This document shows, in pieces, positions 23,380 through 31,999 of a stretch of DNA of 64,000 nt. Under the pieces are notes generated by a model. That model ran no database searches and was not told the origin of the DNA. It saw nothing but the letters and a program-made list of their open reading frames with translations. The translations under genes were made by a program, and so were the position numbers. The stretch is from Tremella fuciformis. Taxonomy: Eukaryota; Basidiomycota; Tremellomycetes; Tremellales; Tremellaceae. Where the stretch lies: contig CP136490.1 of the NCBI GenBank assembly GCA_032768795.1, positions 1,674,001 to 1,738,000 of the forward strand, given 5' to 3'. The number at the start of each line of letters is the position of its first letter. Position 1 is the stretch's first letter.

Positions 23380-26300
23380 CTATGCGGTCTCTGCGAAAGG
23401 GTCCTTGCGGGCCTCCTTTAATGCCTCGTCGCTCATGTCTAAATACCTCGAGTACCCTGGTTTCTTCATGATGCCATCCGCGCCAAGCACACCCGCAGCC
23501 GCGGACAGGCGCACGGGTCTGCCTGTCTTCCTGTTCATCCTCTCTCCGCCAAGCGCCACAACGGCATCTTCGGCCATTTCGAACATGTCGTCCGCACGGA
23601 CGATATCCCGGATGACGGGCATGTAGTCGGTAAATAGGGAAGGGTGAGGTAGGAGGTACGAGTTGAGCGAGATGAGCGGGTCCAGAATGGGAAGGAGGGA
23701 ACGTGAATAGTGTGCACGCCGAGCGGGTAGGTCGCGCACGTCTGCTGAGAGGGTGAGAGGGTGCAGGGCCGAGGCGATGGCTGTGCATGCGTCGTATGCC
23801 ACTGAGCCGAGGCACGGTCGATCGTCGTGCAACGGAGGCTTGACCAGTTGACGGATGCCGACCATGTCGTCTGCTGTGGTACTGTATCGGTCGATGTCGG
23901 TGACATCCATCTCTGCCCAAGTCGGCGGAGTGAGGGCATCTGCCAGCGAGCGCAATTCGACCGCCCGTGAGGCCGGCACGAAGTCTGGTGGCGCTGTCTC
24001 TGTAGGCGACTGTGTTTCAAATTCACTCTCGCCGGCGCGCTCGAGCTGCATCTGAACAATGGCACGACGCAGGTCGAATACCCCCAGAGGCTCGTTGCCA
24101 TTCGGCGGCAGAGGGCGATCGAGCACATTCTGAGGAGTAATCGTACAACGGTGATGCAGATGCGCAGCATAACCAGGCTGGAGAACACCAGAATGCCTGG
24201 CGAGGCTATCGAGATAGGAGATGGCCAGATCAGCAGGTGCCGGCTGAAAGTGCAGGACAGTCTGCAGGGGTAGCTGTTCAAGAGGCACGCTAGATGGATC
24301 TGGACTTCAGTGCGTGCCATTAGCGCGAATGAACAACATACCATTGCACGTGAGGACGATCGGCCGGCGAGATTCGGCGATGAGAGACACGACGGCAGGC
24401 CAGAAGGTCGTCTCCTCTTCGAACAGTATATCCACTTCGTCGATCAGAATTAGGGACTGTCGCACGGTCGCCTCTTTCTTCTCGGCGACTTGAGCAGTAT
24501 GGTCATCATCCTCGTCAATGTCAATCGGTTCGTGCACAGAGCCTTGACTGCCGAGAACCGGACTGCTCTGCCTCTGCTTCTTGCCGAAAAAGCCTTTGAT
24601 CGCATCCTTCTTATCCTTCTTCTCTTCCGAAGAGACGACAAGATGATTCCTCCCGACGTCACCGACCCAGCTGGCCACGTTGCCGCCAGTGCGTTTACCC
24701 ATCCCCGGATTGACCTCGAAGACCTCCCACCCGAGCTCGGCTGCAGCAGCATACACGGCTGCCGACTTGCCTGATCCGTTCGGTCCAGCAAGCATAATTG
24801 TATTCGTCAAGCGAACGTCTAGAGGAGTGTAGGCACCAGGGCGTTCGCCAAGCGCCAAATCAGGCTCCTCATAGGGCTCTTGCACCTCGTCTTCAGATTC
24901 CTCCTCGACTGGATCTCCGAACATTCCGATGTCGTCTACGATCCACCCATCGTCGTTCTGCCTTTTTGAACGTCGGACTTTTCGCTGGACGCGCAAAGCT
25001 GAAGAGCCCGGCCGGGCCGAGCGTAGCTGCAGAGTCAAAAGCCATTGTACGAGGTAGGTCGATTCGACTTCATTTCCCAAGACTTCGGCCGCACGACGAG
25101 GTGCGAAGCGCTCGCACCAGCCCTCTTGTTTTGAGCGCTTGGCGGACGTAGCTTTGTTCGACAAGGATGAGATGGCAGGATGATCCGTGAATTGAGTCTC
25201 GAAGCGATGCCCATTGCCGTTCGTTCGGCTGGAAGCCGTGACAGGTCGAGGTGGGTCTTCGCGCACAAGCACACTTCGCCAGAAACCGAGATCTTTGCTG
25301 AGTGATTGGCGAGAGCGAGACTGACGACCTCGCCTCTCGCACGCCGACGAGGTCGAGGATTCGCCGTTACGATCAACGCATGATCCTGTATGATTTGGCC
25401 ATATGCCTCCGGGCAACGGCGCCACTGGTTCCTCTCCCTCTTTGACGCCATTTCCCCATCCTTTCTGCTCCCCGACAGTGGCGCGTCCAGCGCCGTTCAT
25501 GGCGAAGAAAGCATGCACCTTCTTCTTAGGTGGTGCTCGACTGGTACTGGGCGCCTCGCTGGGAGGAGCCGTTGCCGCTGTCGCCGCAGTAGTCGCTGAC
25601 GGGGCATCAGAGAGCACCGAGCTATCCCTGGATGCAGAACCTTTGCCATTGGGCGCTAAGTGAGCAAAGAATGCGTGCGGGCGTTTGTTGTCGCTGGCGA
25701 ACACCAGTTTCCTGCGCCCAGGTTTCTCAGATCCCTCTTCTACGGCGATAGGATCATGAGCAGCGCCTTTGCCCGGGGTTGTCTCGACATCTATCGGATC
25801 ATGAGAAGCACCTTTGCTTGAACTTGACAAAGTCCGTTGTATGCGCAGTATGGGATGAGTCGTATGAAGGGCGGAAGGGCGATCGATGGACGAGCTGTCG
25901 CCTTCCTCGTCCGGATCGACAGGATCGGACGACAGCACGATCGTAGGCGGACTTGGCAGTCGAGAGAGGGACGGCTGGGAGAGATGCGAGACTTGCGACT
26001 TTCTCGGACGCCCACGCTTCTTCTTCTCAGGAGACGCGGCGGCTGAAGTCGGTCAGCGAGGATGACCTCACGAGCCGCGAAGAGGACTCACGGCTGGGTG
26101 CTGCTTCCTCTGCGAGACCGCCCATGTCCACATCCTCTCCGGATGCAGCATGTCCATTCAGACCATTCTGCTCGTTCTGCCCATTTGGTCCAGGCTTCCC
26201 CTTCGCTCTGGTCGACTTGGTCCGCTTCATCATATCCCTCACCTCCGCCTCCTCCCCATCCCCCTTCTTCGCCTTGCCCTTCCGCGCAACTGCCCCGTCG

Positions 26301-26996: not shown

Positions 26997-29900
26997 CTAG
27001 ACCAGCTTCTTCTCCTCCCTCGCCTCCTCTTTGCCGCTCACAAAGTTCAGGAATTTGGATGCGTTCCGATGCACCATCATCAGCCCGAGTAGGGCGGGCA
27101 GATACCACAGGCTGATGAAGAAAAGCCGCTTGGCCGCCGCGTCTGTCGTGGTTCTCCAAAAGACCCAAGCACTTTGGGCGAAGATGGCGTTGGGCACGAG
27201 GGATGTGGCGGCGAATGACCAGTCGACACTGCCGGATAACGGGGCGAGCACTGAGCTGATAGGAATCAACAGCACTGCGTGACGCAGGGATACCAGGGCA
27301 TTGAGGCGCGGGGAGAGAACGGATAGCATGGGATAGCCGGAAACGGCGTAGTGTTGTCGGATGAGATGCGACAGGGCGTTGAAGTGAGGAAACTGCCACG
27401 AGAATAGCAATGCGAACAATGTGAGGGGAGTGAGCGGATTGGGTGTGCTGGGCAGGTCAGAACCAGGGGTGTTAAGTAGCAGCGGCTGATCGGGTGTCGG
27501 GATAAGCGATCCGCCTGTTGCTGTCCAGCCCATCAAGGGAGTGATGGATCCGACAACCGCGCCAACCCATGTGTTGGCAACTGTGAAGCGCTTCATGGGC
27601 GTATACACAGCGGCGTACAGGACAAGGTTGCCGAGGCCGAGAGCAGCGGTCATCGGGTTGCAACCGTAGTACAGGATAGCGCCGCCCAGGACGGTACAGA
27701 CAAGACCGAAAACCGCCGCATGGAAAGGAGTGATCCGCCTGGTGACTAAAGGTCGCACACGGGTACGCGGGGTCTGAGCGTCGAGTGGAATCTCAAGGAT
27801 CTGGTTGAAGGTGTTGGCGGCAGTCGAAGTGAGGAAGGTACCAATAGTCAGGTTGAGCAGCAGTGGTAGCGAAGTTGGCAATGGCGAGAGAGCGAGACCA
27901 GTAGTCGCTGTCAAAACCATGAGAATTGACAGGTTCCGCTTTGACAGTTGCGAGTATACGCCAATCAGCCGCCGAAGACTCAGCGGTGGGACCGGTTTGT
28001 ACGAATCAAGCAGTGCTGTAGGCGCTTGCGGGGGAGGCAGGTCTAGCTCGGGAAAGATTGGCGGCTGGGCTTGAGCAGCATGAACGATTGTGGTGATACG
28101 AGGCAGATAGGGCACAGGGTGCGCGGAGAAGAATGGCTTCGATACAGCATCGGAGTGGGTGGAGCGGCGCGAGGGCTGGCGTTGTACCGAACGGCCGGTA
28201 TGGTATGATCGTCGTTGTTGACCAGCGAACGGAGAGCTCGCCTGCACAGTCACCGAGGATGGTTTTACTGTCACGGTCGCGTCGACGGGCGGTCTCTCAG
28301 CCTCAGGCTCCGCTTCGCCGACAGTCTGGGGCTGTCCAATCTTGGCCATCTGCCCCTCGACCATCTTCCTGAATTTCCCGCCCCTACGGGAAATGAGATC
28401 AGCATAAGACCCATCCTCGACCACCGCTCCACCATCGAGAAGGACTACTCGTTCAGCCGAGGCGATCGATGAGAGGCGATGAGCGACGAGAATCACAGTG
28501 ATGTCAGACTCCAGGAAAAGCCTCTTCAGAGCAGAGTTGACTGCTCTTTCAGACTCCGAATCTAGTGCGCTGGTGGCTTCATCCATGAGCAGCACGGAGG
28601 GGTTTCCAATCAGCGCTCTGGCAATGGCAATCCGCTGTCGCTGGCCGCCTGACATGCTGGATTTGTTGATCACCGTGTCGTAGCCTTCAGGAAGACGATT
28701 GATGAAGTCGCAGTTGGCCACGTTTGCCGCACGGACGATCTCCTCCCGAGTAGCCTCAGGATGCCCGTATGCGATGTTCTCAGCGATAGTGCCGGCAAAG
28801 AGGATCGGATCCTGAGGCACAAAACCGATACGTGATCGCCAAGACTCCGGGATAAACTGCTTAATGTCTTGGCCGTCGAACAGAACTGAGCCCTTTGTGG
28901 GGTCGTAAAATCGGAGCAGGAGTAGTTGCACCGAGCTCTTGCCACTGCCACTACCGCCCCTCAAGATCAGTACTGCCTCCCACACAAGAAGCAGGCCACG
29001 TACACCAGGGCGATGCGCTCGCCTTTGTCGATTCGCAAATTCAGCCCGTCCAGAACGTGCGCATTGGGTCGAGCAGGATATGCGAACTGCACGCCTCGAA
29101 GCTCGATCGAGCCGTTCCTTTGAGGGGCTACAACTTCGCCAGTCCCAAGAGGGATGGGCGAAGGAAGCGCGTGGAGACTCGTGATACGCTGCGAGGCTCC
29201 GACGCCTTTCATGAGACCGGTGAAGAAGCCAGCAATGGCTGTCTTGAGCTCTGACTGGCAGACTCGACATATGGACTCACTATTCAAGCTCCACTCTATC
29301 CAGTTGACGTAAATGAGCAACGAGGTCATGTCTCCAATGGTGATCTCGCCACGCTTGACCAGGAATCCCCCGTAGAGAAGCAATCCTATCATGCCGATAT
29401 CTCCAGCTACCTCGTTGACATTCTGGAATATGCCGTTCGCCACAGTCTCCTTCTTCTGCAGGGAGTACACCTCGTTCACCTTGTCGGCGAAGCGCTCCTT
29501 CTCGGTGGGCTGGGTGTTCGACGCGGTGACAGTACGATGTGCTGAGAGACGCTCCTCCGCCAGTTTGCTCATATTCCCTAGCGCTTCCTGTGTCTTCAAG
29601 GAGAGTTTTCGGATGTATTTTCCGTAAAAGTAGGAGGAGACCGAGATGGGCGGAATGACCAACAGCATGCAGACGGTGAGCGATGGCGAGAGGAACCACA
29701 TGGCGCCGACGCCAACTGCGGCCGACAGGACAGCCTTGAGACCCTCCCCGAGGTTCTCACTAAGCGATTGACCGATTATAGAAGTGTCTTGTCCTAGGCG
29801 TGAGAGGGCATCGCCAACGCCGGCGGTCTCGATGTGGGAAGGAGGCAGAGCAAGGAACTTGTCGTAGGTCTGGTTACTGCATGATCAGTCGCGTTCTTCT

Positions 29901-30654
29901 TATACACCATATACCGTGCTCACCGGATTCGCGCCACAGTCCGCTGGCCAGCTAGTCTCAAGGCAATGCTCCTTCCAGAGTTGGCAGCAGCCCCAATGAG
30001 CAGAGCGACGGTGATGGCTCCCATCGCGTATTCGAGGGGCAAGCCGAAGAGCAAGGTCGCCTCTGAGCCTGGGGCGAAGAAGTCGATGATACGTCCGATG
30101 GCCCACGGCCATGTCAGGTTGATGGCGGTGCTGATACCCAGACATACGATACCGATGGAGATGATGGGCAACTGGGGACGAGCGAATGACAGGAGTTTAA
30201 GCAGTGATGCGGTGTCCGGGGTGGACTGGGTGGTCGCAGGCGGTTGAGCCGGAGAGGGAGTTGGCGCAGGTGGCTGAGCGGAAGGGTCTGGGAGCTCCAC
30301 ATATGGTGGCGGTCTCGGTACTCCGGCCGCTGGGTCGTACAATGTTTGAGGATCTGCGGGCTTTCTTGCATTCTCCTCTGTGGGTGATGCCGGCTTCGTC
30401 TCGGTCGATTGGTGCCGAAGGGATTGCAGAGTGTGACTCAAGCCGACCCTATTCACCACCGAGCGGTGTGCGCTGAGTTGGCGGGATATCAATGGTGATG
30501 CTCGCGGTAGCACAGCTGCTCTCGGTGCAGCATGCACCCATCTCGCCGAGGTGTTCCGAAGATGAGGGACGATGCGAGATGGGCCGACGTCCGAGGGGGC
30601 GGCGACGAGCCACACTGACCTCCCGAGGCCAATGCCTTGTCTCAGGATCATCAT
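26997..30654 (-). CDS. MDL1-COX10: In-frame fusion: mitochondrial MDL-type ABC half-transporter plus COX10 heme O synthase
   Basis: Exons, right to left: 30654-29924, 29876-29281, 29238-29004, 28959-26997 (1174 aa). The N-terminus is a long Arg/Ser mitochondrial-type leader. A transmembrane domain follows, then an ATP-binding cassette with Walker A GGSGSGKS (522-529, formed by removing intron 28960-29003), signature SMSGGQ (622-627), Walker B VLLMDE (643-648) and H-loop His681. Without any stop the frame continues through a ~110-residue linker (about 730-845, including RRSYHTGRSVQRQPSRRS). It then enters a complete protoheme IX farnesyltransferase: SKRNLSILMVLTATTG, NTFNQILEIPLDAQTPRTRVRP (a polyprenyl-diphosphate-binding N-x3-E-x3-D type motif), PMKRFTVANTWVGAVVGS, FSWQFPHFNALS. 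No Met codon lies between 726 and 867. Intron 29239-29280 is a stop-free 42-mer. Both halves are inner-membrane proteins. Confidence 0.88.
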
Positions 30655-30910: not shown

Positions 30911-31999
30911 ATGGTCGCCTCCTCCTTGAGAAGTAGGTCGTAGGCCGTACTGGGAGCTTAAGCTGACTGGCAGACTCTATGGCTCGGCGGAACCACAAAG
31001 AGCGCGCCCAACCGCTACATCGTCAACGGCTCGGTCTGCTAGAGAAGCACAAGGATTATGTTCACCGAGCGCGAGACTACAAGTCCAAGCAGGATCGCAT
31101 CCGGAAACTGCGGGAGAAGGCGGCCTTCCGGAATAAGGATGAATTCTACTGGGGCATGATCAAGGGCAAGACTCAGGACGGCGTGGCGATTGGCGATCGG
31201 GGGAACGAGGCGCTCAACACGGATCTGGTCAAAGTGCTCAAGACTCAGGATTTGGGCTACGTGCGGCTGCAGATCGCTGCGGATGAGAAGGTCAGCTCTT
31301 CCAGCTGGACGTGCGCGTGGGGCTGAGATGGTAGAAAGTGACCAAGTTGCGTCAGGAGCTCCAGGTGACGATGCCGACAGCCAAAGGTGGCGCCGAGGAG
31401 GAGTGGGGCGCAGCTGAGGAATTGGCCGAAGTTGAGAAGCTTGCGGAGATGGGAGTGGTCCTTCGTCCGCAGGCTTCGTCTAGCTCGGGGCGGAGGAAAG
31501 GCAAAGGCAAGGCGGTTAGCGCACCTACCGGACACGTCGTGTTTGTCGATGATCGCGAAACCTGTACGTCTCTGATCTGTCTTGGGAATTCGGCACTGAT
31601 CTCGTAGTCGAGTCCTACGCCGAACTAGATCACCCTATAGATACCCCCAGCGAGGCCGAAGCCACAGCGGAAGACCTTGGATGGGTAGTCTCGGAACAAC
31701 CGCCTTCGAAGAAAGCAGTACCGCCAGCAAACGTCAATATCGAAGATACAGCAGAGGCGGCCCGCGAACACCGGATAGAGCTCCTTACTACCCTGTCGGC
31801 CTACTTGGGGCGGATACGACTTCTGCGTCAAGCGGAAGCCAAGTTGAGTACGACCAAAGCTATGATGGGCAAAGGCGCCTCGACAAAAGTGCGAGAGTCG
31901 GCATATGTGGAGGATGATACACGGCCGGAGGACAAGAATGGGGAGAGGAAGCGCTTCCAGGGCAAACTGTTCAAGTGGAAGTCGGAGCGGAAAAAGTAG
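30911..31999 (+). CDS. UTP11: U3 snoRNA-associated protein 11 of the SSU processome
   Basis: Exons 30911-30932, 30974-31290, 31335-31563, 31608-31999 (319 aa). The 22-nt first exon contributes MVASSLR and the 41-nt intron completes [17 protein letters not shown], the invariant N-terminus of Utp11. [17 protein letters not shown] and [12 protein letters not shown] follow. A Lys-rich linker and the family's C-terminal [10 protein letters not shown] end are present. Role from family: nucleolar 18S rRNA maturation within the U3 processome. The second and third introns are 44 nt each. Confidence 0.94.

Follow-up and report, generated by a model that had tools for sequence, protein, structure and literature searches.

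A mitochondrial ABC half-transporter joined in frame to heme O synthase in Tremella fuciformis: a candidate precursor of two membrane proteins

Introduction

Does a gene that joins a mitochondrial transporter to heme O synthase in one uninterrupted frame give rise to one protein or to two? The question is raised by a 64,000-nucleotide stretch of the Tremella fuciformis genome (contig CP136490.1, positions 1,674,001 to 1,738,000; hereafter the window, whose own numbering is used below), in which a gene on the minus strand, at 26997–30654, encodes in four exons and 1174 residues a presequence, an ABCB10-type half-transporter, a linker of ~120 residues and a complete heme O synthase (COX10), in that order. 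The reading we favour, with a probability of roughly two in three, is that the fused gene encodes a precursor of two membrane proteins, the linker of which would be cut by the matrix processing peptidase (MPP) in the manner of Arg5,6 in Saccharomyces cerevisiae.

One reading frame with two sets of domains

The exons lie at 30654–29924 (presequence and first part of the ABC membrane domain), 29876–29281 (ABC membrane domain), 29238–29004 (end of the membrane domain and start of the nucleotide-binding domain) and 28959–26997 (Walker A to the ABC C-terminus, linker, complete COX10 and stop), all on the minus strand, and when joined they form 1174 codons plus a stop with no internal stop, in agreement with the single spliced frame proposed in a preliminary description of the locus. 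The three introns, of 47, 42 and 44 nt and all GT...AG, were inferred from the frame, the GT/AG boundaries and conserved motifs, the position of intron 3 being chosen to restore GGSGSGKSS at Walker A. The last exon sits in an intron-free open frame of 759 codons that begins upstream of Walker A, takes in the linker and ends at the COX10 stop, so that the fusion junction is independent of intron placement.

Three Pfam domains score above cut-off on the 1174-residue protein, namely ABC_membrane (PF00664, residues 166–435, 29303–30159 across intron 1, 184.7 bits), ABC_tran (PF00005, residues 505–651, 28569–29053 across intron 3, 108.8 bits, with the signature MSGGQ and the Walker B sequence MDEATSALD) and UbiA, the COX10 catalytic domain (PF01040, residues 869–1138, 27108–27917, 173.5 bits). 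The COX10 part also passes the NCBIfam heme o synthase equivalog TIGR01473 (230.2 bits, cut-off 210.3). Five ABC motifs, including Walker A, the signature, Walker B and the H-loop, are present in 53/53 sequences compared, as are three COX10 motifs, while the fourth, SWQFPHF, is found in 51/53, giving eight of nine motifs in every sequence. By this comparison both halves retain the tested active-site motifs, and enzyme activity is predicted. The N-terminal presequence (30409–30654) includes a candidate site of the R-x-x↓S-T type (the arrow marking the cut), LRHQ↓ST at residues 79–84, by a loose motif match; the pattern R[FYWHLS].[SA][STANQ], itself loose, occurs within the first 135 residues of 26 of the 28 full-length sequences.

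Distribution and origin of the fusion

A protein search with the COX10 part, limited to lengths of ~645–2054 residues, gave 60 matches. UbiA and ABC_tran occur together in 52 of them, and 28 of these 52 also contain ABC_membrane and thereby the three-domain chain of the preliminary description; the other 24 are short (658–817 residues) and look, in our reading, like open frames called on unspliced contigs. Eight long matches carry no ABC domain: three have UbiA alone, and five (P0054, P0057, P0058, P0059, P0060), with proteasome, CLP1, EF-hand or prenyltransferase alpha domains, look chimeric. Chimeras of this sort lend some colour to the suspicion that annotation or assembly has joined neighbouring genes here as well. 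Against it stand the position of the last exon within one 759-codon open frame and the recurrence of the same junction in 52 proteins from several sources, by which chance or a local assembly error at the junction is excluded for practical purposes and an artefact of either kind is left with a negligible probability.

Named holders of the fusion are Kwoniella, Cryptococcus (C. wingfieldii, C. depauperatus and sp. DSM 104549), Naematelia, Kockovaella, Tremellales sp. Uapishka_1, Vanrija, Cutaneotrichosporon and Cryptotrichosporon; Kockovaella belongs to the Tremellales, Vanrija and Cryptotrichosporon to the Trichosporonales, and the remainder we take to belong to one or other of these two orders. 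COX10 models without an ABC part come from Naganishia (Filobasidiales), Phaffia (Cystofilobasidiales) and mushrooms such as Moniliophthora and Tricholoma. As a control, 90 stand-alone COX10 rows (P0086–P0175) were taken, of which 78 were usable (at least 20 residues before the core), 9 were too short and 3 were without an anchor, and an ABC motif ahead of the core was found in 0/78 usable rows. ABC models without COX10 are represented by Cryptococcus P0176 and Mrakia P0182, and a partial model from Tremella mesenterica (P0177), also without COX10, is 84% identical to the ABC half in the window. A COX10 tree of 29 rows, made after six had been dropped, containing one long outgroup row and rooted for display only, unites the fused rows and the stand-alone ones nested among them in one clade with a support of 99/98. 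The fusion would, on this distribution, most simply have arisen once, before the Tremellales and Trichosporonales split. No relatives of P0001, the closest relative of the protein in the window, were found in IMG/VR. One fused protein, P0014 (Tremellales sp. Uapishka_1, 1595 residues), has ~440 extra C-terminal residues after COX10, either a further fusion or a run-on model.

The layout is therefore not the one-off that the preliminary description had taken it for, since fused proteins are already deposited in public databases for many species, often under the label 'protoheme IX farnesyltransferase'. That it had not been described does stand, as far as the literature was searched: among the matches listed from open-licence PMC full text, judged by titles and the beginnings of abstracts, none describes an ABC-COX10 fusion, and the terms cox10, farnesyltransferase, ABC transporter, gene fusion and gene fission are all absent from the main text of a Cryptococcus/Kwoniella genomics paper (PMC11185503).

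The T. fuciformis assembly (28.1 Mb, 11 contigs) was searched for second copies of either half. UbiA matches occur at two loci, the fused gene and one on contig C3, where an exon fragment scores 122.8 bits for 4-hydroxybenzoate prenyltransferase and 43.8 bits for heme o synthase (both below curated cut-offs) and COX10 itself gives 24.8 bits; by these scores the C3 locus is COQ2-like. No second COX10 was found across the assembly, and the candidate that there might be one elsewhere is rejected, the only other UbiA locus being COQ2-like. Also rejected is the notion that the fused transporter is the sole one of Mdl type: an unfused Mdl/ABCB10-type half-transporter lies at C2:2226270-2228266, in six segments 38–68% identical to the fused ABC half, apparently with several introns, and places near Mrakia P0182 in trees. 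A tree in which this copy is constrained to group with the fused clade is 3.57 log units worse (p-AU 0.11). The fused ABC clade itself sits on a long stem of 1.24–1.25 changes per site, in trees both flagged for long-branch joins; P0212 was dropped from the ABC tree.

A conserved motif in a drifting linker

The linker in the window (residues 726–845, 27987–28346) is acidic in its first half and acid-poor in its second, and the corresponding region is disordered in the model of a relative. Linkers could be delimited in the window and in 51/52 relatives (52 linkers in all, P0036 being missed by the delimiting pattern), and all 52 contain the motif [RK]RxxH[ST]; P0036 has KREMHT by eye. In 1000 rounds of shuffling, from which the 35 leading residues of every delimited segment were exempted, an average of 0.13 and a maximum of 2 of the 52 linkers showed the motif. 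One R of the motif and its H are invariant, the residue just ahead of the motif is Q in 51/52, and an A stands three residues past the H in 42/52. In the window the motif takes the form QQRRSYHT (residues 768–775, 28197–28220), a candidate cleavage site with the cut placed before His774; the RRSYHT singled out in the preliminary description as part of a presequence-like stretch is the sole nearly invariant linker element among the fused relatives, and the idea of a cleavable linker put forward there holds at the level of this motif. A second, similar site, RRSTHS, follows at residues 785–790 (28152–28169), where P0001 has RRFNHT. Two copies of RxxH[ST] are seen in several linkers (P0061, P0068, P0073 and P0021, as well as the window), and in P0061 a QAHTQSI block is repeated, so that duplication of the site is possible.

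The surroundings of the motif differ from the rest of the linker. Acidic residues (D/E), at 22.6 per 100 residues in the earlier linker, drop to 4.2 over the last 30 before the site, whereas basic ones (K/R) rise from 8.3 to 14.4. Identity to the window across 11 relatives is 31–53% of aligned positions in the linker, motif site included, compared with 66–81% for the three domains. When the Naematelia protein was modelled with AlphaFold (alignment of 75 rows, mean pLDDT 76.8, pTM 0.55), pLDDT was <50 at residues 717–794 but mostly >85 in COX10 and the nucleotide-binding domain and mostly 65–93 in the membrane part of the ABC half; the Naematelia candidate site, with its cut before residue 773, falls within the low-pLDDT stretch. 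A conserved motif in what is modelled as a flexible, disordered linker has the appearance expected of a protease site, and the motif together with the acid-poor stretch before it forms a plausible MPP site.

It was proposed in the preliminary description that the linker is the old targeting sequence of COX10. This was not borne out: the strict motif occurs in 1 and the loose RxxH[ST] in 7 of the 78 usable stand-alone COX10 N-termini, 21 of which have some other R-3-like motif (RSYST in Phaffia, for example). Because the motif is so rare in stand-alone COX10s, it is not simply their inherited presequence site; it belongs to the fused clade, and need not have been inherited from a presequence at all.

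The linker also bears on a different explanation, by which COX10 would be made from a promoter of its own, or from Met720 or Met725, despite the open frame. Both Met residues exist, the Met-free stretch reported in the preliminary description being flanked by Met725 and Met868, and some COX10 models begin in the linker or the ABC tail (P0074, P0075, P0076, P0077). A product starting at Met720 or Met725 would, however, begin acidic, unlike a presequence, and the frame is open through the fast-changing linker in 52 relatives, although these were found as fused proteins, among which broken frames could not appear. Two transcripts or two starts seem to us quite unlikely. Cutting of the linker by another protease, whether an AAA protease of the inner membrane or MPP with Icp55 or Oct1 acting after it, is rated lower still and is very unlikely, even though a dibasic core followed by two variable residues before the His would also fit two-step trimming under the usual rules. 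The 2A-type skipping considered along with it is rejected, no NPGP being found in the protein of the window.

Stand-alone halves within the fused clade

Two Cryptococcus proteins have the form of separate halves. P0062 is a stand-alone COX10 of 485 residues representing a cluster of 66 sequences named after Cryptococcus bacillisporus, and P0176 is a stand-alone ABC half of 725 residues representing 49 sequences, named at genus level. P0062 nests inside the fused clade beside the fused protein of C. depauperatus (97/89, COX10 tree), and P0176 nests with C. wingfieldii, C. depauperatus and sp. DSM 104549 (98/97, ABC tree), their nested positions suggesting that the fusion has probably been undone in a lineage of Cryptococcus to which C. 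bacillisporus belongs. P0176 stops inside the acidic part of the linker, while P0062 retains QKRSSHS and the linker downstream of it. Their N-termini, starting MISRKGLGFAANIL in P0062 and MLSRQGLGLAANFI in P0176, match over the first 14 residues with a score of 49, the best of the 27 transporter N-termini compared (P0022 and others were dropped); 0/500 shuffles did as well, and 17 control COX10 N-termini reached at most 36. A route consistent with these features is that the fused gene was duplicated and the copies lost opposite halves, the COX10 copy keeping the presequence of the transporter. The re-separation rests on protein records, in which the sharing of one genome by P0062 and P0176 is presumed; if it is right, the halves can live apart, and the mature proteins would need no covalent link.

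One precursor or one bifunctional protein

ABC half-transporters dimerise with their nucleotide-binding domains in the matrix, and the C-terminus of the ABC half as well as the N-terminus of COX10 face the matrix, so that a single chain is topologically possible. In the proposed course of events, a single mRNA would give the 1174-residue chain visible as an open frame, which the N-terminal presequence would direct into mitochondria. The half-transporter would insert in the inner membrane so that its nucleotide-binding domain faced the matrix, leaving the linker and the COX10 N-terminus, by family topology, on the matrix side as well, where MPP would cut at Q[RK]Rxx↓H[ST] within the disordered linker. 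This would release, on one side, a half-transporter of ABCB10 type that ends in an acidic tail and, on the other, a mature heme O synthase beginning near His774, and both would act as separate oligomers made in equal amounts and in the same place. Three things favour cleavage by MPP: the linker is constant only in a basic RxxH at R-3 spacing, which resembles the N-terminal R-x-x↓S; P0062 retains the motif with no transporter attached; and MPP is what cuts the precedent, Arg5,6.

In the nearest competitor the chain remains uncut, as an inner-membrane protein with two functions in which the transport of heme, iron, a peptide or a prenyl donor would be coupled to the making of heme O; the motif would then be a docking site. 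Retention of the fusion across two orders and of the motif sets of both halves would suit such a protein, as would the presence of the motif in only 1/78 stand-alone COX10s, which leaves room for a role of the motif in the fused protein itself; ferrochelatase has ABCB10 and ABCB7 as partners, and the route of heme b to Cox10 is stated to be unknown in the relevant part of PMC7140478. It fits less well that a short basic sequence resembling a processing site is what stays constant in a disordered linker that otherwise drifts, that P0062 and P0176, which stand alone, branch from within the fused clade, and that the motif persists in P0062 without a transporter. On balance we consider an uncut protein unlikely, and a cut precursor the better account.

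Several observations nonetheless weigh against the cut precursor or the re-separation that supports it. The motif, present as such in 15 of 19 further ABC-tailed pieces (RxxH in 19/19), deviates in the other four, with HN, HV or the absence of one basic residue, and its scarcity among stand-alone N-termini speaks against a simple inheritance from their presequences. His is not a textbook residue for MPP after the cut, and a conserved binding site would give an identical motif pattern. The best helical hydrophobic moment near the site was weak (0.27–0.41) in four of seven sequences; one reached a middling 0.47, and two had strong values of 0.55 and 0.61. With the moment weak in 4/7, a complete internal targeting sequence in the linker is hypothetical. 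As to Cryptococcus, the P0062–P0176 match was selected as the best of 27, of which four had a shuffle rate of at most 0.05, and the N-terminus of P0012, a fused near kin, resembles that of P0062 at chance level (0.264). The genus-level placement of P0176 makes one species shared with P0062 a presumption. Lastly, the COX10 model P0076 of Dioszegia hungarica (385 residues) starts at a Met inside the linker, just past the motif position; either the model is truncated or the fusion came apart a second time here.

Neighbouring genes

The fused gene stands head-to-head with UTP11 (30979–31323, plus strand; PF03998, 160.2 bits, one open frame tested), 324 bases separating the two start codons. Its downstream neighbour, at 24307–26052 on the minus strand, has an AAA ATPase domain (PF00004, 26.1 bits) and resembles a clamp unloader of the Elg1/ATAD5 type.

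Possible function and significance

Why these two proteins should be made together may be hinted at by what is recorded of related transporters. Animal ABCB10 stabilises mitoferrin-1, associates with ferrochelatase and exports biliverdin in hepatocytes, while yeast Mdl1 is a peptide exporter that is overall not implicated in iron homeostasis, according to the pertinent section of PMC8468894. The partnership of animal ABCB10 with ferrochelatase makes a link to heme suggestive, and the long stem of the fused ABC clade combined with conservation within it would fit a changed task of the fused transporter. It is conceivable, though we hold it improbable, that this transporter is a dedicated heme-pathway protein, a dimer of which, beside COX10 (cut or uncut), hands heme b or a precursor from a ferrochelatase complex to heme O synthase. 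The fusion in any event ties an ABCB10-type transporter to heme O synthase at the very point where, in a passage of PMC7140478, heme b delivery to Cox10 is said to be unknown, and were the transporter dedicated in this way, the fusion would offer a clue, provided by nature, to the delivery step that is missing for cytochrome oxidase. On the practical side, pipelines that expect a COX10 of ~400 residues can miss or misname the COX10 of these fungi. The natural series of unfused outgroup, fused and probably re-split genes is a tool for asking how internal processing sites arise.

Comparison with known systems

The transporter half resembles ABCB10/Mdl1 as measured on relatives of the protein in the window: the top solved-structure match of the Naematelia model is ABCB10 (4ayx, 40% identity), and the C. 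wingfieldii ABC part scores best among solved half-transporters with ABCB10 at 386.6 bits, compared with 260 for ABCB8 (full-size ABCB1 gives 421 bits over two stretches). Unlike ABCB10/Mdl1, it has a C-terminal fusion, a long stem and a second, unfused copy in the genome. The other half resembles COX10/CtaB/CyoE in passing the equivalog cut-off and keeping the motifs, and differs from them in having no obvious start codon of its own and in forming the C-terminal half of a transporter precursor.

As a composite, the gene is best set beside Arg5,6, which yields two soluble matrix enzymes of one pathway, whereas here the products would be two multi-span membrane proteins with no established joint pathway and with a cleavage that is predicted. 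The likeness lies in one nuclear gene with an N-terminal presequence for two proteins; for S. cerevisiae Arg5,6, internal cutting by MPP has been shown, and Etp1, Rsm22-Cox11 and Atp25 carry candidate internal MPP sites (relevant sections of PMC8847149 and PMC8835746). Neither Rsm22-Cox11 nor Etp1 contains an ABC transporter or COX10. Both include partners in cytochrome-oxidase assembly, Etp1 being Cox15 plus a ferredoxin. Schizosaccharomyces pombe Rsm22-Cox11 and Etp1 resemble the present gene as composite mitochondrial precursors with internal motifs of MPP type (PMC8847149, in part), and Yah1 and Arh1 are mentioned as belonging to a tandem protein of S. pombe (PMC7140478, in part). What would be new relative to these precursors is the joining of two multi-span inner-membrane proteins, with a probable reversal in one lineage; few nuclear-encoded mitochondrial polyproteins are known, and we know of none that joins two proteins of this kind.

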